61,219 nt of DNA from positions 1 through 61,219 of IMG/VR virus record IMGVR_UViG_3300017788_000001. The stretch is one strand, 5' to 3'. Below, one piece after another: positions 7,801 through 31,587 of the stretch. The notes under the pieces were generated by a model, which saw nothing but the letters and a program-made list of their open reading frames with translations, did not search any database and was not told the origin of the DNA. Position 1 is the stretch's first letter, and every line of letters starts with the position of its first letter. The stretch is from a virus. A program made the position numbers and the translations under genes.

Positions 7801-9776
7801 TTAGAGGGCCGAAGCGGCAACCTCAAGACGGAACATCCAAGCCTCGTTGAGGCGGACACCCGCATACCACATCTTCCGTCTACTGTTACTTCAGCGCCGT
7901 GGTGAGCGCCTTAGGACCTAGATAACTATCTAGGCGGGTAGCTGTTTCCACTACCTCCGGTAATTTCGTACCGGGACAGACTATATCATCACCTTTACGA
8001 TGCTCAGTAAAGGGCGTCACGTTGTATCAACTACGGGCTAATCAGGCCCTTGTGGGTGATAAATCTATCTTATACCGCATACTATGGTGGACATAAGGCT
8101 CGATCATGGCTAGGAACTTAACGGCATTTGTCCTGTTCATAACCAAGTTGTACGTGCCTTTACCCGACTTATGTATAGCCACGTCTAGGCTGTGCACCAC
8201 CTTAAAGTACCGTTGCATTATGTAATGCTCTTCTAGAGAGAAGCCTTGCGTACACAGCTTTACACGTAAGCGGGCCAGTCTTTCTTCTCCGCTGGAATTA
8301 GTGTAGAACTTTTTCTCAAGACATCCGTCATCCATGTACCATATAGCCAGCCCTAGAGGACTTAACATGTTTAGCAGCTTTCGTGTGACCTTCTTGGGAT
8401 GACCACACAACTCAAGGAAAGGATTGAGCTTATTGATATGCTTTGACACTGCGTAGCATATCAGCCTTTCTTTTCCAAAACTGCTGGATGTCTGCGTCTT
8501 TACCCCGGAGCCTCTTAGATCACCTAGTAGAGAATCCTTCCACTTTAGATAATCTAGCTGCTTTATTCCGTGCCTCCAGCGCAGGGCTGTGTTACTTGTA
8601 GGTCCATTGGATCTTCTTAGGTGACCATCACCCAGTATGCTCCCTAAGATTAGTTGCTTTTGATTTTCAGATACTGGATATTTCATCCTTATCCTTTATG
8701 TAGTTGATTAGTCGTTGAGGGGAGGACTTTCACCTCTTCCCTGCTGATTGTCCTCGGCACCCTTGCCTTGGGCCGTTAGGAGTTTCCAGCATATAGTGAC
8801 GTTTTAGTTGCGCAGAAGATTAGGCCGCGAGGGCTAGTTCTTGTGTTAACGCAACGTAGCCACGCTGACCCAGCGGATCTTCGTAGGTCTCACCCATCTT
8901 GGGATTCTTGACCACGACATTAGCCGAGGAGCGTCCCTTCAGAGCAGTTGCAGCGAAAGCGTCCTGACCGAAGAACACGACAGGATACACGTCAACGTTG
9001 GTACCGTTGTGCAGGATACCAGTGGTGACGGCGGCGCCAGCACCAGCGAAGTAGGTCAGGTGAGGAAGCAGAATGAATCTGACATCCTGAACCTTACCGA
9101 TCTCCATATCGTGCAGCAGCTTTGTGGAGTCCGAGTAGTGCTCACGCGGGACGAAGCCCGAGACCGCGCGGATGTCCTGCTCAAGATTGGTGTGACCGAA
9201 AGCCACATAACCCGGAGCAACCGGCTGAGTGCTGATCTTCTCACTGGCAGTGATGATCTTGGTGATCGGCTTGGCCATCGCAACCTTGAGGGCGCGAGTA
9301 GCAAGCTGAACATCGCCGAGATCGATCGGAGCCTGCACAGTGGCACGAGAAGTGGCAGCACCGGAGTACGCCACGTTAGTGCCTGCGACGAGGGTGTTCC
9401 ACAGGATACGCTCCTTGGTAAGAGCGGCCTGTTCACCAGCGCCCATCGTGAACTGACGAAGATTGTCGTCTTCATGAGTTTCGATCAGAATGTCGGTGAA
9501 AGGAATCCACGCGCCGTACTGAGCGATGGTGCTGGACACATCTTCGTACACAACGCCGGTCGGCGAAGGAGTGATACCTTCGACCAGCTGTTCCATCGAA
9601 GCATTGAACGGAACCAGTCGACGCCACTTGACCAGCTGACCACTCTTCATGGGAACTTCAACCAGCTGCGCGAACTTCTCCAGCGCCAGCATCGGCTGGG
9701 CATGGGCGAGGAACTGCGCTACTGCATATAGACCAATGCGTACGCCGAGGTCCGCATATTGAACGCCTGAAAACAT
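7801..9776 (-). CDS. Major capsid protein (N4 gp56-like), split by a group I intron
   Basis: Exon 1 runs 9776-8848 and exon 2 runs 7876-7801, giving a 334-residue product. Without splicing, the frame stops at 8820 soon after DPLGQRGYVA. The missing C terminus lies 971 bases further on: KMWYAGVRLNEAWMFRLEVA and a stop, which matches the conserved end of N4-type capsid proteins. Joining after the second T of GCGTT and before GAAGATG leaves an open frame, puts U at the 5' exon end and G at the intron end, as group I introns require. A splice one base earlier (giving Trp instead of Leu) would leave C as the last intron base and is less likely. Preceded by the scaffold gene. Confidence 0.88.
7877..8847 (-). 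mobile_element. Group I intron in the capsid gene
   Basis: This 971-base insert separates the two capsid exons and holds a LAGLIDADG endonuclease gene (8042-8686). On the minus strand its 3' part reads GATATAGTCTGTCCCGG followed by a GGAGGTAGTGGAAAC segment, as in group I P7/P9 regions, and its 5' part has GGTGAAAGTCC and AACGACTA. Equivalent segments occur in the reductase intron at 45315-46147. Boundaries are inferred from the protein and from the U/G splice rule and could be off by one base. Confidence 0.85.
8042..8686 (-). CDS. LAGLIDADG homing endonuclease in capsid intron
   Basis: A 214-residue protein with two LAGLIDADG-type helices: LILGSILGDGHLRR near residues 12-25 and LGLAIWYMDDGCLEKK near residues 112-127, each with its acidic residue. 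Such single-chain enzymes cut an intronless allele at the insertion site and cause spread of the intron. It is carried wholly within the intron on the sense strand, ending about 165 bases before the 3' splice site, so it does not overlap the conserved 3' core. Expression probably depends on the unspliced capsid transcript. Confidence 0.9.
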   Translation of the reverse strand: MKYPVSENQKQLILGSILGDGHLRRSNGPTSNTALRWRHGIKQLDYLKWKDSLLGDLRGSGVKTQTSSSFGKERLICYAVSKHINKLNPFLELCGHPKKVTRKLLNMLSPLGLAIWYMDDGCLEKKFYTNSSGEERLARLRVKLCTQGFSLEEHYIMQRYFKVVHSLDVAIHKSGKGTYNLVMNRTNAVKFLAMIEPYVHHSMRYKIDLSPTRA

Positions 9777-19432: not shown

Positions 19433-19863
19433 CAAGAGGGCGATGTGTCGTTAAGCTTTTGTTCACTCTTGTGTCAATCGCGTAGAAAATTGCTGGTGGG
19501 GCCCCACTCACCGGCCGGACAAGGCCGGGGGTCGAAGGGGATACCCCCCGGGGTCAAAACCCGCGACAACGGGCACGGACACGGCACCAAAACACGCGCC
19601 CCCTTTTTTTTCGTGTGCCCTAGAACGCACGCACGCGCCCGTCACGCCACGCACGCGGGGACCGTGGGGTGTAGCCCACCAGAACCCGGCCCCACGACCA
19701 CGCACGCCCCTAAGCACGGCACGCAATATGCGAACATTTCACCTAGGCATTACATAGGACAGGGTGTTTAACGACTAAACGTCCTCAGCCGACGAGCGGT
19801 CATCTAATGGCTTTCGTTTCCTGTATACTGCACGCACGCCCCAAGAACAGGACTCGCCGACAA
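19433..19863. other. GC-rich intergenic region with CACGCACGC repeats
   Basis: No convincing gene. The plus strand is C-rich between about 19490 and 19720, with GC hairpins (for example GGCCGG segments near 19510-19530), a T8 run near 19604-19611 and four copies of CACGCACG-type words (near 19626, 19648, 19698 and 19830). An imperfect TTAACGACTAA element is at 19768. It divides leftward and rightward transcription and could hold an origin or protein-binding sites. Confidence 0.5.
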
Positions 19864-20385: not shown

Positions 20386-20392
20386 ACAAACG

Positions 20393-20415
20393 GCCCGGGG
20401 AGACCCGGGCTTTTT
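20393..20415 (+). terminator. Intrinsic terminator
   Basis: GCCCGGG, loop GAGA-type, CCCGGGC, then five T residues, directly after the membrane-protein pair. Confidence 0.9.
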
Positions 20416-20459
20416 GTTGCCCGTAGAAAGATGTTAAGAATATGTTAATGAACAGAGGC

Positions 20460-20502
20460 TTAACTTAACGTTTATTTAACACGCTTTTAACGGACATTTA
20501 AC
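20460..20502. repeat. TTAAC iterons with 11-bp phasing
   Basis: TTAAC begins at 20460, 20465, 20476, 20487 and 20498; the last four are exactly 11 bases apart, so they lie on one face of the helix. More TTAA words flank them (20433, 20445). TTAAC is the half-site of the palindrome scattered through 20.6-38.5 kb. The array overlaps the -35 region of a promoter and the region is AT-rich, so a regulator array or replication origin is possible. Confidence 0.75.
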
Positions 20503-20519
20503 GAATAAGGGCGTATGAT
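20491..20519 (+). promoter_or_regulatory. Sigma70-like promoter overlapping the iterons
   Basis: CGGACA (20491-20496), 17 bases, TATGAT (20514-20519). Four of six matches at -35 and five of six at -10. It would transcribe the structured region 20527-21015, which ends in a terminator. Confidence 0.55.
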
Positions 20520-20526
20520 TGCATCC

Positions 20527-21015
20527 ATGAAGAGTGAGCGGGGCGCATAGGCCGCCGCTCGCGATTCATCTACCGTCGCGTGACGTGCCGTGTCCGGGAC
20601 TGACCGGAGCGCGTTATAGCTATACGGGGTATGGCCGGCGGTAGGCTTTAACAGTTAATCGCAATCTTCGAATGTTAAGTAAGTCGATTAGCTGTTGTGG
20701 AGGTGTCTCGGAGACATCGAGCAAACCCGGCCCACGGATGGGTCACCAATTCAGCTAAGCCGGTGTGTCGAATGCTGGCAGGACTACATTTTTTGGGAAT
20801 GAATACGTCCTGCTGTCCCCTTGTCGGCATGCCGGCCCCTTTGTCCCGCTCATGCGTGTTTGTAGGGCATGAGAGAGCAAGCAAGCCCCGCTAGGGTCGG
20901 CCGCAATCGCGTCCGCTTCCATGCCCTACCCTGTCACGCTCTACAGGGTGCCCGGTTCGATTCCGGGACGCGGGGACGTATGTATAGACAAGACGCGCGC
21001 TGTCGCGTCTTTTTT
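20527..21015 (+). ncRNA. Candidate long structured RNA with tRNA-like T arm
   Basis: About 490 bases without a plausible gene lie between a promoter and an intrinsic terminator. Visible structure: a hairpin GAGCGG...CGCTC near 20534; GTAGGGCATG (about 20862) pairing with CATGCCCTAC (about 20920); CCCTGT...ACAGGG near 20930-20950; and a perfect tRNA-type T arm, CCCGG-TTCGATT-CCGGG (about 20951-20967). Six bases CCCCGC/GCGGGG could form an acceptor-like stem, but D and anticodon arms do not fold properly. No known family is recognised (tmRNA was considered). Contains one TTAA palindrome (20648). Confidence 0.5.
20992..21015 (+). terminator. Intrinsic terminator of the structured region
   Basis: GACGCG, six-base loop, CGCGTC, followed by TTTTTT. 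Confidence 0.88.
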
Positions 21016-21099
21016 ATGCGTATGAACAAAGTTTAAGCGTTAAACCATACCGTTTGTCGGGAAAGTGTTGCAAAGGACGGGGTGTGTGGTAGGCTATGT

Positions 21100-21118
21100 A
21101 TGTCGGATGTCCCGACAT
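21100..21118. promoter_or_regulatory. Inverted repeat in the leader of the 21140 gene
   Basis: ATGTCGG, five bases, CCGACAT: a perfect 7-bp inverted repeat 21 bases before the start codon. A weak promoter (TTGCAA near 21069, TAGGCT near 21091) precedes it. Could be an operator or a translation-controlling hairpin. Confidence 0.55.
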
Positions 21119-21139
21119 CAACCTACAGGAACCAAGACC

Positions 21140-21886
21140 ATGCAACTTGACAAAACATCCCGCATCATGTTCGGTATCGTGGAAGCCATTTCGGCGAATC
21201 GTGCCGAACTGCTGGCAAAGATCGACGCCGAAGCCTCCGCACTCGCCGGTATCAAGCAAACGGCCAGCGAAGCGAGCAGGGAAGCCCGTGAATCCGCTTC
21301 TCCGGCCTTGTGGACTTCCGTCGTCGAGCTGGCCGAAAGTGTCACCAACGCGGCCGGCTCCGAGGAGTTGGACGCCGCGCAGCGCAACGTCGTCTTTGCA
21401 GCGCTCATCACGGACGCCGTAAAAGGTGGGGAACCTGCCGTCAAGAGCGTCAAGGCGTACACCAGTACGGCGAAGTCTTGCATCTCCGCTGTCACCGCCG
21501 GGAAGCTGAATTGGCACCAAGTGCGTTCCAAGCTGGTGAAGGAAGGCGATGAGATGCGCGAAGCTTCCGTGACGTATAAGGAAGTGCGCGACATGCTCAA
21601 GAGCGGCGGCCAAAAGGAACTTGACGCACTGTGCAAGCAAATCGAGACGGACTTGCGCGAACTTCGCGGACGCGAAAACGATACGCGTTCAGTCGACTCG
21701 CGCATGGCCGACCTGCGATCGCTGCACGATCTGATTGCGCCGATGGCCGCGAAAGTACGCGAAGTGCGGGAAATGGCGAAGTCTGCCAACAAGCGGGCCG
21801 CAGCCGTCAACAGCCTGCGACAGCAGCAGCCGGCCGGACCGATGACCACGGAAGTCACGGCCAAGCCCGAAGCCGTCGCCGCCTAA
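21140..21886 (+). CDS. Helical hypothetical early protein
   Basis: A 248-residue, Ala/Glu/Lys-rich, almost wholly helical protein with no membrane segment. Heptad-like stretches suggest coiled coil (AELLAKIDAEASALAGIKQT near residues 18-37; KELDALCKQIETDLRELRGR near residues 159-178). I chose ATG 21140, which has AGGA upstream and lies just after an inverted repeat; the frame is open further upstream but without a start signal. It is a single-gene unit, with its own weak promoter and hairpins after it, so it is probably well expressed. Not recognised. Confidence 0.75.
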   Translation: MQLDKTSRIMFGIVEAISANRAELLAKIDAEASALAGIKQTASEASREARESASPALWTSVVELAESVTNAAGSEELDAAQRNVVFAALITDAVKGGEPAVKSVKAYTSTAKSCISAVTAGKLNWHQVRSKLVKEGDEMREASVTYKEVRDMLKSGGQKELDALCKQIETDLRELRGRENDTRSVDSRMADLRSLHDLIAPMAAKVREVREMAKSANKRAAAVNSLRQQQPAGPMTTEVTAKPEAVAA

Positions 21887-21910
21887 AGCTGCGACAGCAG
21901 CGCCCTACCC

Positions 21911-21987
21911 TAGCCCCTTCGATAAGAGGGGGCTAGCTCTGCATCCTTAGCAGGGAACTAAGCTAACACCTTGTCAACAGGGTGTTA
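21911..21987 (+). terminator. Two hairpins after the helical-protein gene
   Basis: CTAGCCCC (21911) pairs with GGGGCTAG (ending 21936), and CTAACACC (about 21962) pairs with GGTGTTAG (ending about 21987). Neither has a proper T-tract, so they may be Rho-assisted terminators or processing sites before the gene at 22023. Confidence 0.5.
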
Positions 21988-22022
21988 GCGTGGCAATCCT
22001 GCCATGCACCGGAGCATTACAT

Positions 22023-22205
22023 ATGTCCATCGCAGCAGCCAAGCGTCGCAGGCGGCAAGTCGCGAAATGCAATCGTCACCTTGCCAAGATTGGGCGCCCC
22101 GGCACCCCGAAGAAAATCAGCGCTAGCAAGAGCGCGGCACGCCTGCAACGTGTCATCAACAAGCAAAAGCTCATCGCCCTGCGCAGGGGCCAGAAGAACC
22201 GCTGA
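22023..22205 (+). CDS. Small very basic protein
   Basis: A 60-residue Lys/Arg-rich protein (AAAKRRRRQVAKCNRHLAKI), probably nucleic-acid binding. ATG 22023 has GGAG nine bases upstream; a GTG at 21990 is possible but poorer. A perfect terminator follows, so it is a single-gene unit. Not recognised. Confidence 0.6.
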   Translation: MSIAAAKRRRRQVAKCNRHLAKIGRPGTPKKISASKSAARLQRVINKQKLIALRRGQKNR

Positions 22206-22223
22206 TCCCTGCCACAAGACACT

Positions 22224-22245
22224 AGCCCGCTCCGGCGGGCTTTTG
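22224..22245 (+). terminator. Intrinsic terminator
   Basis: AGCCCGC, four-base loop, GCGGGCT followed by TTTT, 19 bases after the small basic-protein gene. Confidence 0.88.
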
Positions 22246-22296
22246 TCGTGCCTGAAAAACAGGAAAGCGAAGAGATTAACAGTTAAAAGGATGAGC

Positions 22297-22452
22297 ATGT
22301 ACTACCGCTACCGAGAGCCTCACAAGCACAGAGTTGCATGGTCGCGATATGGCTTTTGGTACGCCGTGTCACCGTGTAATAACGGGCGCACGTTCGCCTT
22401 CGCACAGATGCTTAACAAACTCAATGTGCCTGCTAGCCCCTACTGGCACTGA
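22297..22452 (+). CDS. Small aromatic-rich hypothetical protein
   Basis: A 51-residue protein (MYYRYREPHKHRVAWSRYGF), rich in Tyr, Trp, Arg and His. ATG 22297 has AAGGA at good spacing; an in-frame ATG six bases earlier lacks room for it. A TTAACAGTTAA palindrome lies just upstream. Function unknown. Confidence 0.55.
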   Translation: MYYRYREPHKHRVAWSRYGFWYAVSPCNNGRTFAFAQMLNKLNVPASPYWH

Positions 22453-22608
22453 AGGACACAGACATGTCTAACGAAAACAAACAGATAGCGCGACTGAAGA
22501 CGGGATAAGTCCCCGAAAGACCCCCGGCGCTAACAATGTAATCCGAGCCGGCAACCAACCCGGCCCGCACCACCCTATCATCCGTTTAACCATTAAACAG
22601 GTGCAATC

Positions 22609-22800
22609 ATGAGAGACTACCAACCGCTTCGCCAGTTCAAGGGCCCGGGAAGCCGGGCAAAGAAAGGACTTCCGTCGTTCGCCGAGATGAGCAAGACAGC
22701 GGCAAATCTGACACCCGCACAAATCGAGGAAAAGTACAGATTCCGCTGCTGCCGCTATGGAAAGACTCATCGCGATCACCAGAAACAGCCGAGTCTGTAA
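22609..22800 (+). CDS. Small hypothetical protein
   Basis: A 63-residue basic protein (MRDYQPLRQFKGPGSRAKKG) with a Cys pair near its C terminus (FRCCRYGKTH). The TTAACCATTAA palindrome lies 13 bases before the start and AGG serves as a weak ribosome binding site. Not recognised. Confidence 0.55.
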   Translation: MRDYQPLRQFKGPGSRAKKGLPSFAEMSKTAANLTPAQIEEKYRFRCCRYGKTHRDHQKQPSL

Positions 22801-22806
22801 GCGTTC

Positions 22807-22981
22807 CCTGCCGTCCCTGCAAACTAGCCTTTTCTAGATAATGCGTTATCGTTCCGATGAGGGGATCAGGAAAAGTCCGGGGACGGCAGGCTTTGGTTTT
22901 TTGGAAAGTGGACTTGTTCATGGCAGGTACGCGACTGTCCGTCATAATAGATGCTCGTTCGGAAAGCCGAGCCTCTGACGG
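22807..22981 (+). other. Structured intergenic region
   Basis: Between the genes at 22609 and 23081 there is no gene. CCTGCCGTCCC (22807) can pair with GGGACGGCAGG (ending 22892), followed by a T-rich run (TTTGGTTTTTTGG), which would make a long-range terminator. A nested hairpin follows: CCGTCA (22939) with TGACGG (22976), enclosing GCTCG/CGAGC. Could be an attenuator or small RNA. Confidence 0.55.
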
Positions 22982-23080
22982 ATAGGATGTGTGGCGCGGA
23001 CGTTGTGGACGAGTCCACCTCCTAAAGAGTCAATGATTAACGATTAAACGTAGCAGCCAGTGACATCAGGAGAAAACAAC

Positions 23081-23644
23081 ATGCTTCACACCACATTAAA
23101 GCACCTGCGTTATCATTTCGCTTGTATGCCACGCTATAGGAAGCTGCGTGAAAGTCTCCCGCGCGATCATGCTTCTGATACGCCTATCAGCCTGTTGCAT
23201 GTCCTTGAATTCAATGGAATCAAGGATGCCGTGTGGGCGCTCCGGGCGACGATCGAGCCAGACGGAGAGACGATGGCTCGGGAGTTCATCTGCCGCGTTA
23301 CCGAGAATGTATTACCTACCTTCGAGGGGCTGTTCCCAGACGACAAGCGTCCTCGCGAGGCAATTGAAGCTGCTCGCGCCTACAACAAAGGCACGATCTC
23401 CGCAGCGCGTCTCCATGCGAAGTACCTCGCCGCCCGCGATGCATACATCAGCGTCTGCGCCCTCCGTGCGCTCTATGCCACAGGCGTCGGAAGAGTCCCT
23501 CACTTCGCCCTTCTTGCCACCGCCCAACACTCCTGCCACTATGGTGCCCGCACTGTTCTCGATTTCACTTACTCTCCTGTCAGACGAAAAGCATGGACGG
23601 CTTGCTTCCGTGAACTTCTGGAGCAGTACGGTGCTCAGCCATGA
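23081..23644 (+). CDS. Hypothetical protein resembling Imm5-like phage proteins
   Basis: A 187-residue helical protein. ATG 23081 has AGGAGA at correct spacing; the open frame upstream (to 23060) has no such signal. The stretch LFPDDKRPREAIEAARAY followed by SAARLHAKYLAARDAYISVC, and the C-terminal VRRKAWTACFRELLEQYG, resemble a family annotated as putative immunity protein Imm5 found in many phages. That family's function in phages is unknown. A TTAACGATTAA palindrome lies 34 bases upstream. Confidence 0.65.
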   Translation: MLHTTLKHLRYHFACMPRYRKLRESLPRDHASDTPISLLHVLEFNGIKDAVWALRATIEPDGETMAREFICRVTENVLPTFEGLFPDDKRPREAIEAARAYNKGTISAARLHAKYLAARDAYISVCALRALYATGVGRVPHFALLATAQHSCHYGARTVLDFTYSPVRRKAWTACFRELLEQYGAQP

Positions 23645-24162
23645 GCGGTGAACCGATGAGCGCGGCGGAGGTGCTGGCCAGTCTGCAGCAGTACGTCCCG
23701 TACGTGCAGAAACACAGCGCCGCCCGCAAGGGCTACGTCGTCGGCATGCGCCGCAAGAACAAGCGCGACGAACTCGACGAAGTGCACACATACCTGCACG
23801 CGCCCAGCGCTCGCATCGCCGTCGCCGCCCTGATCGCCCGCGTCGATGCGCTGGAGGCCGAGAACAGGGCGCTGCGGGACATGCCTTTCGTTCGCACTGG
23901 CACATTCGACAGAAACGGCCGCGGGATTCTGGCCGGGGACCGGGTTCTCTACATCGGCAAAAGCAAACATACCAAGCGCGAATACTGGTTTCCCGAATAC
24001 ATCGTCGAATGGCGTGCGCCAAGGTTCCGCCTGAGCTATGCCGGCGGAGACAAAGACAACTCGTCGGCTCACTTCGCTTTCGAGCACACCCACGACGATA
24101 GCTGGCGGGCTGAGCTTGAAGTGATCGACGCAGCCCGCGCGGAGGCCGGCAGCCATGGCTAA
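23641..24162 (+). CDS. YopX-like hypothetical protein
   Basis: A 173-residue protein; start overlaps the previous stop (ATGA). Residues about 85-140 (GTFDRNGRGILAGDRVLYIG, then EYIVEWRAPRFRLSY) follow the YopX-type pattern of a small beta barrel with a DxxGxxIxxGDxV motif. The N-terminal half is helical and basic. GC-rich compared with neighbours, like accessory genes of other phages. Role unknown. Confidence 0.6.
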   Translation: MSGEPMSAAEVLASLQQYVPYVQKHSAARKGYVVGMRRKNKRDELDEVHTYLHAPSARIAVAALIARVDALEAENRALRDMPFVRTGTFDRNGRGILAGDRVLYIGKSKHTKREYWFPEYIVEWRAPRFRLSYAGGDKDNSSAHFAFEHTHDDSWRAELEVIDAARAEAGSHG

Positions 24163-24361
24163 GAGAATTTTTTCTGACATCGCGTACATGGCGACGCTCA
24201 TCGCTACCGCATACGGGCCGACTGTTGGTTCCGATATCTACGACCGGCACCACTCAAGCCGCATCAATTCGCGTCGCACGAAGTCTCGCAAGACGACCAC
24301 TGTCGCTGCGATGAAGCGCGAGGCCAAGAAACGCCGCGACAGGAGAAAGAGCCATGGCTAA
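24155..24361 (+). CDS. Small basic hypothetical protein
   Basis: A 68-residue protein with a hydrophobic N-terminal half (DIAYMATLIATAYGPTVG) and a very basic C terminus (KREAKKRRDRRKSHG). Overlaps both neighbours by eight bases, so it is part of a tightly coupled set at 23641-24772. Unknown. Confidence 0.55.
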   Translation: MAKRIFSDIAYMATLIATAYGPTVGSDIYDRHHSSRINSRRTKSRKTTTVAAMKREAKKRRDRRKSHG

Positions 24362-24554
24362 GGACGCATGTTGCCGCATTCCGCGATACGAAGCCGAGCA
24401 ATTCGCCGGGATGCTCGTTTTTCGAGTGGTCAAAGGCCTCAAGAAGTATCGGTGCCGATGCGCAAGCTGCGGAACAACCAAAGATGTTGGAGCTATCGAG
24501 GCTCAGCGGATAACACGCCGTGCCACCCTCGCAGCGTGCAGGGGGATTTCATGA
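24354..24554 (+). CDS. Small zinc-ribbon-like protein
   Basis: A 66-residue protein with Cys pairs consistent with zinc binding (DACCRIP near residue 4, CRCASCGTTK near residue 34). AGGAG lies ten bases before the ATG. Overlaps both neighbours. Possibly a small regulator; unrecognised. Confidence 0.6.
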   Translation: MAKDACCRIPRYEAEQFAGMLVFRVVKGLKKYRCRCASCGTTKDVGAIEAQRITRRATLAACRGIS

Positions 24555-24772
24555 CCCGCTTCCTCGCCCGTCTGCTCGCTGCTAACGGATTACAGCCGCC
24601 ACGCACTCATGAGAACGCGTTCAAGCAATCACTCGAACAGCATTGCGAAAGCAATCCGAGCTATCAAACACACTCGCTCATCGAGAAGAATCCGTGGGAC
24701 GGCGTGCCTGTCAAATGCGATATGGAAGCTGCCGGGTTCAAGTTCGACGAGAGCTGGAAACTAGAAGATTAA
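24551..24772 (+). CDS. Small hypothetical protein
   Basis: A 73-residue protein (MTRFLARLLAANGLQPPRTH) from ATG 24551, which overlaps the preceding stop and has AGGGGG upstream. Its own stop lies in a TTAACCGTTAA palindrome that precedes tRNA-Arg. Unrecognised. Confidence 0.55.
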   Translation: MTRFLARLLAANGLQPPRTHENAFKQSLEQHCESNPSYQTHSLIEKNPWDGVPVKCDMEAAGFKFDESWKLED

Positions 24773-24783
24773 CCGTTAATCAT

Positions 24784-24861
24784 TCCGTCTATAGCTCAAC
24801 TGGATAGAGTAGCGGCCTTCTAAGCCGTGGGTTGGGGGTTCGAGTCCCTCTAGGCGGACCA
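24784..24861 (+). tRNA. tRNA-Arg (TCT)
   Basis: Full cloverleaf with seven-base acceptor TCCGTCT/AGGCGGA, anticodon loop CTTCTAA (anticodon TCT at 24819-24821), T arm GGGGG-TTCGAGT-CCCTC and encoded CCA. Reads AGA codons. Confidence 0.93.
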
Positions 24862-24882
24862 TCCATTCAAAGGAACAATCAC

Positions 24883-25215
24883 ATGACTGACAAGTTCATT
24901 CCCGGACAGACGTACAAAGACCGTGAAGGTCGTGAGTACGTATTCGTAGGCTACGCCCCGCATGCACTAGAAACCGTTCGTGCTGTGTTCACGATAGGTC
25001 AGCACTTGACCGGCAGGTACGAGGACGGCAAGAGCAGTTTTCGCGAACACGATATCGTGCAGACAAAGGACGTATGGGTGAATGTCTACCGTTGCCCATT
25101 AAACACGACCGGCGTGAGATGTTCTGTCGCCACCTACTCATCTGAAGGAGAGGCAGCGCGGTACGCCCACGACGGCGGCTACCTGTCCCCGCAGAAGATT
25201 ACGGTTACCATCTAG
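24883..25215 (+). CDS. Hypothetical protein
   Basis: A 110-residue soluble protein (MTDKFIPGQTYKDREGREYV) with a small beta-barrel-like start (GQTYKDREGREYVFVGY). ATG 24883 has AAAGGA upstream and lies just after tRNA-Arg. No membrane segment or motif. Unknown function. Confidence 0.65.
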   Translation: MTDKFIPGQTYKDREGREYVFVGYAPHALETVRAVFTIGQHLTGRYEDGKSSFREHDIVQTKDVWVNVYRCPLNTTGVRCSVATYSSEGEAARYAHDGGYLSPQKITVTI

Positions 25216-25326
25216 TCGCAGCCTATCTGGACATCTCATGAAAACTCCATTCTTTCCTTTCACGCTTCGCGCCAACGACAGTTCGTGCAAGCGATGACTG
25301 GTATGCTTAATTAATAGGAGACAGTC

Positions 25327-25506
25327 GTGGAACCAAAAGAACAGCAAAGCGAGACTCCCAAGATCGTCATCACTTCGATCATGATCGAGAGGGCTGCTGA
25401 GGCGTACCACAATTTCAGAGATCCGACACTCTCAGCCTCATTGTCGGCGTTTGCATACGATGAAATTCGTATGGCTCATGCTCTGGCTGCGGCTATTAAT
25501 CGTTAA
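25327..25506 (+). CDS. Small helical hypothetical protein
   Basis: A 59-residue protein from GTG 25327 with AGGAG eight bases upstream; too short for many gene finders. Sequence MEPKEQQSETPKIVITSIMI then helical, ending FAYDEIRMAHALAAAINR. Its stop lies within a TTAATCGTTAA palindrome. Unknown. Confidence 0.6.
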   Translation: MEPKEQQSETPKIVITSIMIERAAEAYHNFRDPTLSASLSAFAYDEIRMAHALAAAINR

Positions 25507-25512
25507 TCTCTC

Positions 25513-25824
25513 GTGTCCAAGAAACAACGCCAAAGCATTACAGCTTATGCCTTCGACAAGAAGGGCAGGCTGCTAGGCGTAGGACGTAACTCCTACACCA
25601 AGACGCATCCTCTGCAGCTGTGGTATGCCAAGCGTTGTGGGCTGGATCACAAGATGTATCTGCACGCTGAGATTGCAGCACTCATCAAGACGCGCGGGCA
25701 CAAGGTTCACAAGCTAGTCATCGTGCGTGTAGGGAAGGACAAGAGCTTGCTCAACGCAAAGCCTTGCCCTGTGTGCCAACTCGCAATAGAAGAGTTTGGC
25801 GTCAAGGTTGTAGAACATTCATAG
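25513..25824 (+). CDS. Cytidine-deaminase-fold protein
   Basis: A 103-residue protein with the zinc-dependent deaminase signature: MYLHAEIAAL near residues 48-57 (His ligand and catalytic Glu) and KPCPVC near residues 83-88 (two Cys ligands). Substrate is unclear: free nucleotide, tRNA or nucleic acid are possible. It is shorter than typical dCMP deaminases. The start is GTG 25513 with no visible Shine-Dalgarno sequence; it follows the preceding stop by six bases, so translational coupling is probable. Confidence 0.8.
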   Translation: MSKKQRQSITAYAFDKKGRLLGVGRNSYTKTHPLQLWYAKRCGLDHKMYLHAEIAALIKTRGHKVHKLVIVRVGKDKSLLNAKPCPVCQLAIEEFGVKVVEHS

Positions 25825-25873
25825 CTGTTAGTCGTGTTTAACTGTTAATCGCACGGCCTAGTCGTGCTCATCC

Positions 25874-25951
25874 GGGCCTATAGCTCAATTGGTTAGCAGT
25901 AACGGGCTCATAACCCGTAGGTTGCAGGTTCGAGTCCTGCTGGGCCCACCA
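25874..25951 (+). tRNA. tRNA with CAT anticodon (Met or Ile2)
   Basis: Acceptor GGGCCTA/TGGGCCC, anticodon loop CTCATAA, T arm GCAGG-TTCGAGT-CCTGC, encoded CCA. The G1-C72 pair argues for an elongator Met or Ile2 (lysidine-modified, reading AUA), but the anticodon stem CGGG/CCCG equals that of initiator tRNA. The D stem is only three pairs. A TTAACTGTTAA palindrome precedes it. Confidence 0.9.
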
Positions 25952-25974
25952 ATCAACACACGAAGGATACGACG

Positions 25975-26256
25975 ATGGACAGGTTGTACGAGGGGTGCAA
26001 GGTAAGGATTGATCCGGCGTATGCCACGGTGTTCCAGCTCCCTGTCGACACCGAAGGTATCGTCGTGACACGATCTCCTATCGTTAGTGACAGATGGGTG
26101 GTGCAGTTCGGGACGTTGCCCCGCCCCCTTCATCTACAGGACAACCGTCTCATCGCTCTATCTCCCGCACGACGCGAGCAAACCGTCACCATAGACGAAC
26201 TGGTCGCCGCCGTCCCCTACGCCAGTCGTGCCCTTTCCATTCCTGATCCGGAGTAA
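25975..26256 (+). CDS. Hypothetical protein with SH3-like barrel
   Basis: A 93-residue protein with a pattern of short beta strands (GCKVRIDPAYATVFQLPVDT then GIVVTRSPIVSDRWVVQFG) like small SH3-type barrels. AAGGA lies before the ATG and tRNA-CAT just upstream. Unknown function. Confidence 0.6.
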   Translation: MDRLYEGCKVRIDPAYATVFQLPVDTEGIVVTRSPIVSDRWVVQFGTLPRPLHLQDNRLIALSPARREQTVTIDELVAAVPYASRALSIPDPE

Positions 26257-26259
26257 CAC

Positions 26260-26649
26260 ATGCATTTCTTTTTCTACGGCACATTGATGTCGGGATTCTA
26301 CAACAACAACTTTCTCACGAAGTTACCGGGCAGCAAGAAACTGTTCGACGCGACAGTGAGGGGCTACAAGCTGTGGGGTACGGGACGTATTCCCATCGCT
26401 GTCAAGAGCAATGACCGAGACGAGCTGACGCACGGCGAAGTGTGGGAAGTGAGCAATCCGTATGCTGTCGCTGCTCTGCATCAGATGGAAGTGCGTGCCG
26501 GATACAAGGCCGTGGAAGTCACGGCTGCGAACGTACCTGAAGCAGAGTATATGGAGGGTGTCTACATGTACGTCCACGACGAGCAACACGTGCTCGGCGA
26601 CTGGATGAAGCCTATCCCCAACAATAACTATCGAGAGTGGAGAAAGTGA
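26260..26649 (+). CDS. Gamma-glutamylcyclotransferase-like protein
   Basis: A 129-residue GGCT/AIG2-fold protein. It begins HFFFYGTLMSGFYNN, the family's signature (YGTLM with the substrate-binding loop), and has the expected strand YKLWGTGRIPIAVKS and the acidic segment GEVWEVSN. The fold removes gamma-glutamyl groups as 5-oxoproline from amines or peptides. In phages such genes occur with amidoligases and ATP-grasp ligases, which this genome has at 29.2-33.7 kb. The catalytic Glu is likely within the GEVWEV or later ALHQMEV segment; I cannot place it with certainty. Confidence 0.82.
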   Translation: MHFFFYGTLMSGFYNNNFLTKLPGSKKLFDATVRGYKLWGTGRIPIAVKSNDRDELTHGEVWEVSNPYAVAALHQMEVRAGYKAVEVTAANVPEAEYMEGVYMYVHDEQHVLGDWMKPIPNNNYREWRK

Positions 26650-26801
26650 TGGAAATCCTCTATGGCCCGGCGGCATTCCTCATCGTCCTCGCGGCAGCAA
26701 TTCTGATTTCTGGTGGTGTAGCTATCATCGTGATGGTGGTGAGTCTCACCATTCGCATGATGTGGGACATCATCACTAAGCCGAAGCAGTCACGTTATTA
26801 A
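26649..26801 (+). CDS. Small membrane protein
   Basis: A 50-residue protein, one long hydrophobic segment (FLIVLAAAILISGGVAIIVM and following VVSLTI) with a short basic tail. Start overlaps the previous stop (TGATG) and the stop lies in a TTAACAGTTAA palindrome. Too short for usual cut-offs. Unknown. Confidence 0.6.
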   Translation: MEILYGPAAFLIVLAAAILISGGVAIIVMVVSLTIRMMWDIITKPKQSRY

Positions 26802-26821
26802 CAGTTAAACAGGAGTGTGTC

Positions 26822-27049
26822 ATGAAAATCGTACTGTTGTTGATATTCCTGCTTTACGTCTTGCCGATGGTGACCGTTCTGACAGTGCTCGCCTCCGAAT
26901 ACCGTAAGGGCAGGCTAGAGAAGAATCTGGTGTTCAATGGCGTTATTGTCGCCATCACACCGACTCTTAATCTGGTCTGTCTGTTGTGGGCCGTGGGGTC
27001 AAGACTTGTGGACATCATCTCACACGCAATCACCGGAAGGAAGCGCTGA
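26822..27049 (+). CDS. Small membrane protein, two hydrophobic segments
   Basis: A 75-residue protein with segments at about residues 3-24 (IVLLLIFLLYVLPMVTVLTV) and 38-58, separated by a basic loop (EYRKGRLEKN). AGGAG lies upstream of ATG 26822, and a palindrome precedes it. Overlaps the next gene by one base. Unknown. Confidence 0.65.
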   Translation: MKIVLLLIFLLYVLPMVTVLTVLASEYRKGRLEKNLVFNGVIVAITPTLNLVCLLWAVGSRLVDIISHAITGRKR

Positions 27050-27351
27050 TGAAATTTCCTGTACGTGCTGTTGACAATCGCCCGTCCATCACCGCACAAG
27101 AACGTCTGTTCGTGCGTCAGTTTGGGGACAAACCTGCTGTCGTGAAATACACGGGGCGTGAGAGCCTTGTCGGGCTACGTGTGCTGGGTAAGCATAGCGG
27201 CTTACGAATCGAGCAGAACGCAGACGGACGGTACATCCGTGCCCTTGACATCGTGAACGGTGTTGAGGTTCCTACCACCAGAAAGCTCAAGCTTCGTTTC
27301 CGGGACAGCGCCAAGATGCTGGTGCCCGGTGTGCGTAGCTGGGTGAGATAA
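27049..27351 (+). CDS. Basic hypothetical protein
   Basis: A 100-residue basic, beta-rich protein (MKFPVRAVDNRPSITAQERL). ATG 27049 has AAGGAAG upstream and overlaps the previous stop (TGATG). No motif recognised. Confidence 0.65.
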   Translation: MKFPVRAVDNRPSITAQERLFVRQFGDKPAVVKYTGRESLVGLRVLGKHSGLRIEQNADGRYIRALDIVNGVEVPTTRKLKLRFRDSAKMLVPGVRSWVR

Positions 27352-27371
27352 CCAAAGGAAATAACAACCAA

Positions 27372-27473
27372 GTGAAACGTAACAGTCATGAAATGAGCCA
27401 CCTGCTGGCTCTCTTGATCGGCGTAGGCATGATTTGTGCCTGTGTCATCGCCTCCGCAGCAGTTATGAAGTAA
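27372..27473 (+). CDS. Very small membrane peptide
   Basis: A 33-residue reading frame from GTG 27372 after AAGGAA, encoding MKRNSHEMSHLLALLIGVGM and a Cys/Ala-rich hydrophobic end. One membrane helix. Supported only by the start signals and hydrophobicity. Confidence 0.4.
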   Translation: MKRNSHEMSHLLALLIGVGMICACVIASAAVMK

Positions 27474-27545
27474 GTTGCAGGCTCGCCTGCTCCTCGTTTT
27501 AACGATTAAACCCAACACATCCACTACACTTCAAGGAACAACATC

Positions 27546-27959
27546 ATGAACGACAACTCCGTCCGCTTCCTCCACTATCGTGCCTTCGCGAATGACGGCA
27601 CAGTCCTTCCCTACGGCGGCGCCACTGTCGCCTACCGCAAGATCGGTCCGGGCCAAGTGGCTTACGCCGTGGCACGCTGCCGTGACAAGACCAAGACGCC
27701 GGAAGTCAAGAGCGCCTACTCCGACAACTTCAACCGTCGTCGCGGCCGTGACATCGCTCTCGGTCGTCTGATGGACGACAGTGCAGGCAAGCGTCAGGAA
27801 ATCGGTACAGCTCCGGGCAATGAGCAGGCTACGTTCTGGGAATACATGGACCAGCGTATGCAGGACAGTCTCAGTTACAAGCGCCGTCGTCGTGCAGCCA
27901 CTCCGCTGTCGCCCGTCGATGAGAGCAGCTGCGCATGCGCCGCGTCATCCTGCTGCTGA
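27546..27959 (+). CDS. Hypothetical protein with Cys-rich tail
   Basis: A 137-residue soluble, Arg-rich protein with a C terminus ESSCACAASSCC, unusual for a cytoplasmic protein and possibly metal binding. AAGGA before ATG 27546; a TTAACGATTAA palindrome lies 37 bases upstream. Overlaps the lipoprotein gene that follows. Unknown. Confidence 0.65.
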   Translation: MNDNSVRFLHYRAFANDGTVLPYGGATVAYRKIGPGQVAYAVARCRDKTKTPEVKSAYSDNFNRRRGRDIALGRLMDDSAGKRQEIGTAPGNEQATFWEYMDQRMQDSLSYKRRRRAATPLSPVDESSCACAASSCC

Positions 27960-28162
27960 TCGCGGCCATTATGGCTGCTGCGTGTACTGAACACGCCGTA
28001 GTAGCAGAAAAAGAAATAGCCAATGCATATAAGGTGTGCGCAGACAACGGAGGTCTCGCGGAAGTCAGGGCCTCTAATGTAGGCCCATCTTATCAGTGGG
28101 TTAGTCAAGCCTACTGCCGGAATGGCGCCCGTTTTTACTTTCCTCACAAGGTATCACAATGA
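27935..28162 (+). CDS. Putative lipoprotein
   Basis: A 75-residue protein with a signal peptide and lipobox (VILLLIAAIMAAACTEH, Cys at about residue 17), so it would be lipidated and exported. The mature part has further Cys residues (KVCADN, AYCRNG). It overlaps the preceding gene by 25 bases and has no obvious ribosome binding site. Exported phage lipoproteins outside the lysis module often act in superinfection exclusion; here that is inference. Confidence 0.6.
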   Translation: MRRVILLLIAAIMAAACTEHAVVAEKEIANAYKVCADNGGLAEVRASNVGPSYQWVSQAYCRNGARFYFPHKVSQ

Positions 28163-28335
28163 TTCGTCCATGTGTTTCTTCCTGCGGCAAGAAGCCGCGC
28201 AGCCAAGATCAGCTTCATGGTCAGGGCAATCGCGTGTTCAACGAGCAGCCCGCTAAAGATGGCCAGCAGGCGTTCAAGTGCACCGTCTGTGGTGCGATCA
28301 TCACCCAGTCCGTATCATCGAAGGAATCCAAATGA
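28159..28335 (+). CDS. Small zinc-ribbon protein
   Basis: A 58-residue protein with CVSSC near the N terminus and CTVCG near residue 42, a four-Cys zinc ribbon. Starts on the preceding stop (ATGA) and its own stop overlaps the next start. Unknown role, perhaps a regulator. Confidence 0.6.
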   Translation: MIRPCVSSCGKKPRSQDQLHGQGNRVFNEQPAKDGQQAFKCTVCGAIITQSVSSKESK

Positions 28336-28583
28336 GCAAGACCACCAAGTTCATCAAGACCAGCAAGTTCCCCATCACCTTCGACCGCCTGCATCCGGGC
28401 AGTACGTTCATCATCCACGCCGAGCGTAGCCGTGGGTTCAACTTCTCTCGCGACTACACCGTCTACCGCAAGGCCACGGACGCTGAAGGCTTCTACGCCT
28501 ACCCCGCGCACGACAAGACCAAGGCAGCATGCCTCATGCCTTCCGACATGGTGTGGCCGGTGAAGGAACAAAGGAGCAGCTAA
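28332..28583 (+). CDS. Small hypothetical protein
   Basis: An 83-residue basic protein (MSKTTKFIKTSKFPITFDRL) with a compact beta pattern. ATG 28332 overlaps the previous stop and has AAGGA nine bases upstream. Unknown. Confidence 0.6.
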   Translation: MSKTTKFIKTSKFPITFDRLHPGSTFIIHAERSRGFNFSRDYTVYRKATDAEGFYAYPAHDKTKAACLMPSDMVWPVKEQRSS

Positions 28584-29230
28584 TGGCTCGCATTTTCACA
28601 TGTGATGCAGTGATGTGCTCGAAGCTGCTTCACACCAGACGTGAGCAGCTGGCGCGCGCCGGGCTAACGGTCATGGACATCGTGTATGTACCGGGCTTGT
28701 GGGCAGGGACAGCCAAGGCTTCGCAAGCGCTTTACATGGAGGATATCAACGAGGAACGAACTGCCGCTCATGGTGGCGCCCTTGGTATCATCTATGACAC
28801 GCAGGTAGAGCTGCCGGCGTCACTTCGAGAAGTAGGCTTCACAGGTACAGGTACCTTTTGCTGCCAGTCTATCTGTGAGTCGGGACCTTTGGGAAATAAC
28901 TTCTATCGCGCAGCTGCTCTCCTTCCGTGCACGCTGTTGCCTCTCTATAATCTCAATGACGAGAGTATGGGGCGCACAGCGTTTTATGGAACACCGACGG
29001 GCGCTTTTAAACGAGTGCATTACCCGTCAGTCGGTCCCTCTCGTTCTTCGCACGCATTCGATCGTGCACGAATGACCAGCACCTCTGAGGCTGTGGACAG
29101 ACTCGGATCGGCAGGCCGTATTGAGGCGAGTGTTCTTCTTGCCAGTGCGTTTCGAAGAAGTAAGCGTTCCATCCTCACCGATAGTAGCTACGAAACTTCT
29201 CTCCCATCATCGTTGCAAGGTACCATTTAA
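28583..29230 (+). CDS. Hypothetical protein
   Basis: A 215-residue protein, not recognised. ATG 28583 overlaps the previous stop (TAATG) and has AAAGGAG. The first 115 residues look folded (ARAGLTVMDIVYVPGLWAGT), while the last 100 are Ser/Arg-rich and less regular, as if the frame had drifted or the tail is disordered. Its stop lies in a TTAACGGTTAA palindrome. Confidence 0.55.
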   Translation: MARIFTCDAVMCSKLLHTRREQLARAGLTVMDIVYVPGLWAGTAKASQALYMEDINEERTAAHGGALGIIYDTQVELPASLREVGFTGTGTFCCQSICESGPLGNNFYRAAALLPCTLLPLYNLNDESMGRTAFYGTPTGAFKRVHYPSVGPSRSSHAFDRARMTSTSEAVDRLGSAGRIEASVLLASAFRRSKRSILTDSSYETSLPSSLQGTI

Positions 29231-29242
29231 CGGTTAAACATC

Positions 29243-30124
29243 ATGACAATTCTCATCACGAAAGAACGATACGAACAGGAACTGACCAATGCGCCTAACG
29301 GTGCGTTACTGCGAAACTTCGCCAGCATGCTCGGCAGAACCCCCACGGCTGCAGACTACAAGACGCTGCAGACGCGTTACATGACGCACCTCCATATGGC
29401 TGCTGAAGATCCTGCGGACGTTAGGAACTGGTCGCCTCACTGGCTGAAGTTCGGCAAGAGTACACGACCGTGGCACTTCGTCAGCCCCGCGTCTGTCCTT
29501 CCCGCCGATCAAGTGTGGGTGGGGTTCGAGGTGGAGACAGGCTATCACTCACGAGAAGCCCTAACCACTGCGCTGGGCAAGCTAGCTCGTTGCAAGCAGC
29601 TCATCGCGCTGGACGTGGAGGGTAGTGGCAGGCAGCCTATCGAAGTGACATTCTTCCCTGTCGCACTGGCTGATATGGAGAAGAAGGGCGGTCCGTCTCG
29701 TATCATCAATATGTCTACTTCTGTTCCCCCAGCAACGCACGATCCTGACCGTCTGGTTGGCACGCACTTCAACTTCAGCACACCTACCATGCGTAGCTCC
29801 GGTATACAGTTCGATGTGAATGGGGTTGGACATGCTATTCAAAACCTCACTGGCGAGCAGCGTGAGCTTCTGTTCGGTAGATCACGTGTGTACGGCCCCA
29901 CTCCCTACTGGCAAGGCACGCACGTCGAGTGCAAGTGGTTCAACACCACATACAACAAGAGCATGTGGAAGCGCTATTGCCGTGTCATGCGTGCGTTCAT
30001 TGCTGAAGTACAGGCTGTGGAGGCAGGTGCTCCCCAGCGCTGGGGCGCCTTCTTCAACACGCTCGCTGGGCGTGAACAGACACGTCTCATCAGAGAGGCG
30101 AACAGGAGCCGCCGTGCTAGCTAA
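29243..30124 (+). CDS. Amidoligase-family enzyme A (COOH-NH2 ligase)
   Basis: A 293-residue protein of the glutamine-synthetase-fold amidoligase type. VGFEVETGYHS near residue 92 is the GxExE metal-binding strand, QPIEVTFFPV near residue 131 the second acidic strand, and GTHFNFSTPTM near residue 173 the HxN-type strand. Such enzymes join carboxyl and amine groups using ATP. It starts the cluster with the ATP-grasp gene (overlap 11 bases) and class II amidotransferase genes. The start lies six bases after a TTAACGGTTAA palindrome. Substrate unknown. Confidence 0.75.
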   Translation: MTILITKERYEQELTNAPNGALLRNFASMLGRTPTAADYKTLQTRYMTHLHMAAEDPADVRNWSPHWLKFGKSTRPWHFVSPASVLPADQVWVGFEVETGYHSREALTTALGKLARCKQLIALDVEGSGRQPIEVTFFPVALADMEKKGGPSRIINMSTSVPPATHDPDRLVGTHFNFSTPTMRSSGIQFDVNGVGHAIQNLTGEQRELLFGRSRVYGPTPYWQGTHVECKWFNTTYNKSMWKRYCRVMRAFIAEVQAVEAGAPQRWGAFFNTLAGREQTRLIREANRSRRAS

Positions 30125-30965
30125 CATCCTTCGACGACGTGGGCTGGGCAAGGGCAGCACGTCTGCTATTCACGCCATGAGTGAGGGCAGGATCGGGGTT
30201 GTCCGTAGTGACGATGCTGTCGCCGTGGCCGCGCTCGACTCTTCCCTTCCCCTGATTCGCTGGGGCTGCACGTCACAAACCCGACACCGAGGCCCCCAGC
30301 TGAATACGTCCGCATCAATCCACTGGTGCAACGACAAGCGCAGCGGCAGACTTGCGATGCAGGACGCTGGTGTGTCTGTGCCGGAAACGTGGGACGCTGG
30401 TGATTTTCTGTCAGCGAACAGAGAAGCGCTGTCTTATGTGGCGCGCCCTGTACATCACGCTCAGGGACGCAATCTGCTGGTCTTCGACGGTAATCGCCCA
30501 GAGCAACTGAGGGATTTCGTGAGCCGGACCGGAGGTGGTTATGTGTCACGTCTTATCGACAAGGTGGCGGAGTATCGCGTGTTCGTGTGCCGTGGCCGTG
30601 TTGCATGGGTGGCTCGCAAGCATCCGGGCAATCCCGACGACGTGGCGTGGAACGTGGCACGTGGCGGACGTTTCGAGAACGTGCGCTGGAACGACTGGCC
30701 GATGGAGTCCATCAAGCAAGCTCTTGCTGCAGCCCGTCTCAGTGGCACAGACTTCTGCGGTGTGGATGTGATGGTGGATGCTGACAACAGGGCTTACGTT
30801 CTGGAGGTCAACAGCGCTCCCTCGCAGACCAGCGAGTACCGCCAGCGCTGCACCACTAAGGCACTGCTGTACACGCTGGAGAACATGGACCAGACGTTCG
30901 AGTCCCCAACTAGATGGCGTTCATACAAGGATGTCATCCATCCAGCACTGAACACAGGAAACTGA
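30114..30965 (+). CDS. ATP-grasp ligase (RimK-like)
   Basis: A 283-residue ligase starting at GTG 30114, with AGGAG six bases upstream; the longer open frame before it is not translated as its start lies inside the amidoligase gene. Conserved segments: VARPVHHAQGRNLLVF near residue 105 (nucleotide-binding Lys/Gln loop), EYRVFVCRGRVAWVARK near residue 150, and DFCGVDVMVDADNRAYVLEV near residue 212, which holds the Asp and Glu that bind magnesium; NSAP follows. It would form a peptide or amide bond through an acyl phosphate. Neighbours suggest joint action with amidoligase and glutamine amidotransferase. Confidence 0.88.
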   Translation: MLANILRRRGLGKGSTSAIHAMSEGRIGVVRSDDAVAVAALDSSLPLIRWGCTSQTRHRGPQLNTSASIHWCNDKRSGRLAMQDAGVSVPETWDAGDFLSANREALSYVARPVHHAQGRNLLVFDGNRPEQLRDFVSRTGGGYVSRLIDKVAEYRVFVCRGRVAWVARKHPGNPDDVAWNVARGGRFENVRWNDWPMESIKQALAAARLSGTDFCGVDVMVDADNRAYVLEVNSAPSQTSEYRQRCTTKALLYTLENMDQTFESPTRWRSYKDVIHPALNTGN

Positions 30966-30966
30966 T

Positions 30967-31587
30967 ATGTGCGTAGCAATTGTAATCCCGGCAGGTAAGC
31001 GTATCTCACTTCAGCAGGTACGTGCCTGCCACACATCCAACGATGATGGGTGTGGCCTCGCCTATGTCAAGGGCAAGACGGTCAAGATCATCAAGGGGCT
31101 GTTCGAGCCCGACGAGTTCTACCAGAAGTATCTGGAAGTAGCAGACACGTATGGCGACAAGGCCATGCTCATGCACTTCCGTATCGCTACGATGGGCAGG
31201 GTGGCCGACAGGAACTGCCATCCGTTCTCTATCTGCGGGGGTGCCATGATTCACAACGGCAGTCTGTGGAGCGGACCGCTCACCAACGACAAGTCGGACA
31301 CTGCGGAGTTCGCGGAAATGTTCGGCAAGATGATGAAGGAGAAGTACGTATCCGCATCGCTGGACAAGATCGACAAGGCCGTTAGCTACAACAAGCTGGC
31401 CATGCTATATGGGTCTGGTAGGTACTACATCACCAACAGTAACCAGTGGCATAATATCGACGGCGTATTATTCTCCAACATCAACTGGAAAAGATTCGTC
31501 GACCAGTCTCCTACGCTTACGCAAGCCATGATCGACGAGGCGTGGGACGAGCACTATGCGTGGGGCGGCAGGGGAGGTGCTCACTGA
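30967..31587 (+). CDS. Class II glutamine amidotransferase A
   Basis: A 206-residue Ntn-hydrolase. Cys2 after the initiator Met is the nucleophile (MCVAIVIP), HFRIATMGRVADRNCHPFSI near residue 76 has the conserved Arg and His-Pro-Phe, and MIHNGSLW near residue 96 the oxyanion Asn-Gly. It would release ammonia from glutamine. No synthetase domain is attached, so the ammonia acceptor must be another protein, most likely a cluster ligase. Starts one base after the ATP-grasp gene. Confidence 0.88.
   Translation: MCVAIVIPAGKRISLQQVRACHTSNDDGCGLAYVKGKTVKIIKGLFEPDEFYQKYLEVADTYGDKAMLMHFRIATMGRVADRNCHPFSICGGAMIHNGSLWSGPLTNDKSDTAEFAEMFGKMMKEKYVSASLDKIDKAVSYNKLAMLYGSGRYYITNSNQWHNIDGVLFSNINWKRFVDQSPTLTQAMIDEAWDEHYAWGGRGGAH

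Follow-up and report, generated by a model that had tools for sequence, protein, structure and literature searches.

What is the function of the TTAAC words that begin at position 20460 of this virus record? The window, i.e., the whole record of 61,219 bases, has a left arm on the minus strand with capsid, portal and terminase genes and a right arm on the plus strand with early and replication genes. A preliminary description took the TTAAC words for a candidate replication origin or a master control site. Our reading of the whole locus is that they form the transcription-control site of a Y RNA gene, served by an OmpR/PhoB-like activator, with the Ro60 protein of the host as the target of the RNA. 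We offer this reading tentatively, at slightly less than an even chance.

Among named phages, the podophage Stenotrophomonas phage StenR_269 (OR838459) is closest, with 57% identity in TerL and 53% in DNA polymerase. Both phages have the two-arm layout and a dispersed palindrome restricted to the early arm, but the StenR_269 palindrome lacks the center base (TTTAACGTTAAA), and StenR_269 has neither the 11-bp array nor a Y RNA.

A phased TTAAC array beside a promoter-like sequence

Direct inspection of the sequence places TTAAC on the plus strand at 20460, 20465, 20476, 20487 and 20498, as previously described. The last four copies (20465–20502) are YTTAAC-N5 direct repeats with an exact spacing of 11 bp, their units reading CTTAACG, TTTAACA, TTTAACG and TTTAACG with 4-bp spacers between them. 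The additional copy at 20460–20464 begins 5 bp ahead of the next one and therefore falls on the opposite helical face, so the proposal that all copies share one face holds for the four in-register units and fails for this one. Two inverted half-sites on the minus strand (20433–20448), which appear as GTTAA at 20433 and 20444 and are also 11 bp apart, were absent from the preliminary description. The complete cluster comprises seven half-sites within 70 bp and is the densest in the window; the next densest 80-bp stretch contains three.

The array is not due to chance. A same-strand run of four half-sites at 9–12 bp spacing, as observed here, never arose in 20,000 dinucleotide-preserving shuffles of the 100 bp around the array, in which the best run, of three, was seen once and the count of seven half-sites by itself was matched once. 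When the whole window was shuffled 300 times, no run exceeded two. Pairs of the form TTAAC-N6-TTAAC with at most one mismatch number 8, versus 1.38 expected. The surrounding DNA is AT-rich, as had been noted: the A+T content of positions 20421–20520 is 67%, a value equalled by 0.05% of the 100-bp stretches in the window.

A terminator-like hairpin that would end the preceding small genes is located at 20392–20411 on the plus strand (8 pairs, 7 of them GC, followed by TTTTTGTTG), which bears out the earlier placement of the array just past a terminator. On the other side, 20502 is the final base of the last TTAAC, and a -10-like hexamer, TATGAT, occupies 20514–20519 on the same strand, 11 nt past that TTAAC and 10 nt past the end of the last 7-mer unit. 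A poor -35 sequence, CGGACA (20491–20496, plus strand), can be paired with it by consensus matching. The resulting promoter-like pair at 20491–20519 does overlap the end of the array, as claimed, but it is a weak match (9 of 12 positions), and with two such sites found versus 1.5 expected it is not significant alone. No known RNA family reaches its curated Rfam score at the array itself.

A Y RNA and a tRNA-like domain downstream of the array

The putative noncoding transcript would run on the plus strand from the array promoter, with an inferred start at 20526, to a second terminator-like hairpin identified by a hairpin scan at 20990–21011 (fold z = -3.34 for 20526–21012). It contains the structured RNA that had been reported to follow the array, which can now be named: from its sequence and predicted fold, the element at 20761–20834 (plus strand) is a Y RNA. 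Y RNAs are small RNAs that cells use together with the protein Ro60. The window RNA has the conserved lower stem of the Ro60-binding type, as predicted from the sequence CGAAUG...UUGUCG, followed by CGAAUGCU, the upper stem GGACUACAU...GUCC, and CUUGUCG. It thus shares with bacterial and phage Y RNAs (YrlB and YrlA, partners of Ro60/Rsr) the succession CGAAUGCU...ACUACAU...CUUGUCG and the covarying lower and upper stems.

Comparison sequences were gathered with a Y RNA motif pattern, which found 21 stretches in viral contigs and 45 in genome contigs. In these 66 loci 67 pattern matches were re-found, 30 of which passed a filter for lower-stem pairing. The resulting alignment consists of 29 RNAs, the window and one poorly folding RNA (L162) being left out, and shows compensated changes on both strands at 13 of the 18 consensus pairs. 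A covariance model built from these 29 other Y-like RNAs was run on the window together with 25 segments from relatives (469,951 bases in all). It gave the window RNA 60.9 bits (E = 1.6e-13), a score that partly reflects motif identity because the 29 RNAs were found through the same exact motif words and are therefore identical in them; the next best matches had E values of 0.31 and 1.9. The independent Rfam match and the fold agree with this call. In Rfam, YrlB matches 20760–20835 with 36.2 bits (E = 1e-5; gathering score 97) and YrlA scores 23.1 bits (gathering score 69). Neither gathering score is reached, and we therefore file the element as a Y RNA rather than as YrlA or YrlB.

The segment 3′ of the Y RNA (20886–20975, plus strand; fold of 20884–20985) forms a tRNA-like cloverleaf with a 6-bp acceptor-like stem (20886–20891 paired with 20970–20975) and a canonical T-arm (20951–20967); neither ARAGORN nor Rfam calls a tRNA or tmRNA there. 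In YrlA, the tRNA-like domain sits in the loop of the Y RNA, which fits the insertions in the Rfam model match. An associated tRNA-like domain, as reported for YrlA (PMC7790460), is thus shared by the window RNA, but in the window the cloverleaf follows the Y RNA stem on its 3′ side instead of occupying its loop.

A Ro60 gene in the same genome is usual for a Y RNA, though not universal in phages. Unlike such Y RNA/Ro60 systems, the window record has no Ro60 (TROVE) gene that we could find, and a TROVE gene is present in two of the 11 other phage records that contain Y-like RNAs, some of these records being fragments. In bacteria, among 14 genomes chosen out of the 45 Y-motif loci, 10 have a TROVE match with E <= 0.001 (6 of the 14 above the family cut-off), compared with 1 of 14 control genomes, so the Y motif tracks Ro60 there. 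Y RNAs have been reported from mycobacteriophages, and Ro60-type proteins from a phage of Listeria and from some jumbo phages, among them one of Vibrio; the available excerpts of these reports leave unexplained why a phage would have a Y RNA without the partner protein (PMC12282133, PMC7765460, PMC7824862). Inspection by eye of the flanks in four phage contigs (L147, L148, L155 and L159) revealed apparent further Y RNA-like motifs in tandem, often amid tRNA genes.

Candidate functions of the array

The geometry of the array matches that of the direct-repeat operators of OmpR/PhoB-type response regulators, and we therefore read it as a transcription-control array. In Escherichia coli, PhoB recognizes 8-bp repeats with a 3-bp linker, positioned 10 bp upstream of the -10 sequence, and the cyanobacterial SphR box, CTTAACCT, occurs in at least three tandem copies (PMC1906773). 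Mycobacterial PhoP requires a strict 4-bp spacer between its 7-bp motifs and forms trimers or tetramers on longer arrays (PMC4832192), and Salmonella PmrA binds a direct repeat of YTTAAK (PMC10927774). The window has tandem direct repeats with an 11-bp period, for which two units are enough to define such an operator, and its last unit ends about 10 nt before a -10 sequence that is itself only a consensus match. Like the Pho, SphR and PmrA boxes, it consists of a short AT-rich word directly repeated in three or more units, with no good -35. It differs from them in its word, YTTAAC(G/A), in its additional units (two inverted, one off-phase), and in belonging to a record without a recognized regulator gene. 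On this analogy the array is probably an operator of the activator type. The earlier suggestion of a control site at a promoter, ahead of a structured RNA, is borne out.

From this arrangement we infer that the promoter is used and that the bound protein activates rather than represses. One subunit of the protein would bind each 11-bp YTTAAC-N5 unit head-to-tail, in the manner of OmpR/PhoB-family response regulators, until the four in-register units are filled. Once bound, the protein could retain RNA polymerase at the -10 hexamer, which begins 11 nt past the array and has no good -35. The transcript, of about 0.5 kb, would include the Y RNA and the tRNA-like cloverleaf and end at the terminator at 20990–21011. 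Since no Ro60 gene was found in the record, the Ro60 targeted by the Y RNA would be that of the host, and the trimming or degradation of host or phage RNA might be altered during infection.

Two observations bear on the candidate binding protein. No OmpR-type DNA-binding domain (Trans_reg_C) was found in the window record, so that a factor of this family would have to come from the host. On the other hand, the half-site is common to the palindromes of the phage itself, which points toward a phage-specific factor and against a host regulator. A literature search for a TTAACA PhoP box yielded nothing useful. A comparison of the array among relatives, as had been recommended, found it in none of those examined. 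The relatives identified by TerL mostly supply late-arm DNA, and searches with the left-hand neighbor protein, the right-hand neighbor protein and the DNA of the region returned no matches, so this comparison covers only part of the relevant set. Complete records of more distant relatives contain no array, no palindrome family and no Y RNA, with single palindrome sites in two of them; at most one such site each was found in the records searched for six more distant relatives. Neither TTAAC nor GTTAA occurs within 400 bp upstream of any of the 11 other phage Y RNA loci. The array is thus absent from the relatives examined and its word from other phage Y loci, and conservation lends the reading no support.

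Similar arrays do occur in other viruses. Viral contigs contain at least 119 stretches with four TTAAC copies at 11-bp spacing, versus 43 for the reversed word in a complete scan. Among the matches listed, a look-alike filter kept 79 of 123 TTAAC arrays and 33 of 44 reversed-word arrays. Hexamers agreeing with the -10 consensus at 5 or more of 6 positions follow the 79 listed TTAAC arrays at offsets of 11, 21 and 22 in 4, 5 and 4 cases, respectively, where the background averages 1.11 per offset; the 33 reversed-word arrays have no such excess. Offset 11 had been fixed beforehand by the window, and offsets 21 and 22 were picked after seeing the data. Among background offsets the highest count is likewise 4, an upstream control gives 6 at offset 11 with a looser threshold, and several of the matches resemble another promoter type (TATATTTG). 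As support for an operator, this phasing is suggestive only. The absence of TTAAC arrays from open reading frames (0 of 126, versus 17 of 47 in the control) was rejected as a sign of function, because it is mechanical: TTAA at 11-bp steps creates stop codons in all six frames. As a separate observation, six viral contigs (L054, L098, L010, L100, L006 and L037) have TTAAC arrays that range from 4 to 13 units, and the units in L054 and L098 are CTTAACCT-N3, identical to the cyanobacterial SphR box as printed.

TTAAC was correctly described as half of a dispersed palindrome. A motif scan for TTAACNGTTAA with at most one mismatch found 13 sites versus 0.71 expected, all within 20648–35195, with the consensus TTAAYNRTTAA in the early arm. 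Most lie 5–36 nt ahead of a start codon or tRNA: those at 22586–22596 and 23037–23047 are 12 nt upstream of an ATG and a GTG, respectively, and those at 25496–25506, 26798–26808 and 27499–27509 are 6 nt upstream of a GTG, 13 nt upstream of an ATG and 36 nt upstream of an ATG. The site at 29227–29237 overlaps a stop codon 5 nt upstream of an ATG, and two others precede tRNA-Arg by 5 nt (24769–24779) and tRNA-Met by 25 nt (25838–25848). The remaining sites are located within the noncoding RNA region (20648–20658, TTAACAGTTAA), ahead of the open reading frame that starts at 21140 (21033–21043, one mismatch), at 22276–22286, and within genes (32525–32535 and 35185–35195, one mismatch each). StenR_269 has 10 exact copies of TTTAACGTTAAA, none outside its early arm and the majority at gene junctions, and palindrome-based control would therefore be common to two diverged phages as a second regulatory layer. 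The main text of the StenR_269 paper (PMC10747016) does not contain the words "palindrom" or "promoter". In StenR_269 (L131, 159–24578), TTTAACGTTAAA often abuts a ribosome-binding site, e.g., TTTAACGTTAAAGGAGATACGATG at 24567.

N4-type promoters are hairpins with a strong stem and conserved bases up to the start site. The palindromes were considered as hairpin promoters of this type, or as RNA hairpins more generally, and this was rejected: the inner pair is not kept, and no common sequence was seen by eye between palindrome and start codon. With respect to a virion RNA polymerase, the 2089-aa protein of the window matches no family.

The shared half-site raises the alternative that the array is the high-affinity nucleation site, in effect the master site, of a phage DNA-binding protein that also occupies the TTAAYNRTTAA palindromes, acting in the manner of operators and "stoperators" mainly as a repressor or road-block. 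The word (T/A)TTAAC is common to both kinds of site, and because the inner C/G of the palindromes varies (C..A, T..G) while the outer TTAA is kept, they are better understood as DNA sites than as RNA hairpins; a phage protein that binds this system, shared as it is with StenR_269, might bind the array as well. Many copies of one site in the short intergenic spaces of early genes also recall mycobacteriophage L5. However, the palindromes are inverted, with half-sites head-to-head at a 6-bp offset, whereas the array is direct and head-to-tail at 11 bp, and its units are not half-made palindromes, since only those at 20465 and 20498 come within two mismatches. The palindromes of StenR_269 come with no array, which shows that one can exist apart from the other. 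The stoperators of L5 are asymmetric and bound to the orientation of transcription (PMC9283540), but the window sites are symmetric, are confined to a single arm and occur in a phage without a recognized repressor, and no candidate DNA-binding protein was recognized among the subset of open reading frames scanned. Weighing these points, we regard a master site of this kind as somewhat unlikely.

Replication initiation is a far weaker candidate. The array lies between two divergent gene arms, and few 100-bp stretches of the window are as AT-rich as the one with its phased repeats, as would suit iterons on which an initiator binds and opens the DNA. However, there is no DnaA box near the array (the window has a single loose match, at 14300), no adjoining initiator gene was recognized, and the primase, helicase and polymerase genes are 14–21 kb away. 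Cumulative GC skew stays low over a broad span of about 20–35 kb, reaches its minimum near 30 kb and tracks gene direction. In StenR_269, the stretch corresponding to approximately 19.4–21.1 kb of the window is the inter-arm region, where its genome paper (PMC10747016) places the genome ends, and it contains no such array. We therefore rejected the origin as unsupported and consider it very improbable. The repeats could instead be simply an AT-rich upstream element, either curved or easily melted DNA or a UP-like polymerase contact, with no dedicated protein. Blocks rich in A+T that recur at a near-helical interval ahead of a -10 sequence would fit, as would the absence of the words from all of the relatives examined. 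TTAA steps are not A-tracts, however, and the exact pentamer repeats go beyond A+T content, as shuffles with the same dinucleotides fail to reproduce them; such an element appears improbable.

The preferred reading, a transcription-control array for the Y RNA gene, has a more specific form in which a host two-component regulator, exploited by a lytic phage through a Pho-box-like 11-bp array, turns on a viral Y RNA with a tRNA mimic that captures host Ro60. We judge this version unlikely as a whole. If true, the virus would couple host stress signaling to host RNA-quality control. In either form, this locus of a StenR_269-like podophage, with its clear regulatory array and the Y RNA that follows, is a small, testable unit.

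Other features of the record

Several further features of the record were observed. A class II-type ribonucleotide reductase at 44417–47040 is split over two open reading frames (44417–45349 and 46090–47040) that cover positions 76–375 and 386–697 of phrog_367. The two halves flank an open reading frame for a LAGLIDADG endonuclease (45387–46139), which is therefore probably an intervening homing element; a second LAGLIDADG endonuclease is encoded at 8042–8686, adjoining the capsid gene. The open reading frame at 51964–52506 matches phrog_1040, a phage family that bears the name peptidase HslV (E = 3e-20), and that at 23060–23644 has a match to an Imm-5-like immunity-protein domain (E = 1e-8). 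A cluster at 29820–34987, which StenR_269 has in common with the window, comprises ATP-grasp (R2K/RimK-like), amidoligase and two glutamine amidotransferase-like genes. Just past the last late gene, a G+C-rich stretch (19480–19700) contains GGGGATACCCCC; such a stretch is also found near the StenR_269 genome end (L132, 33215) and near the end of another contig (L169, 97), making it a candidate packaging or terminus site.
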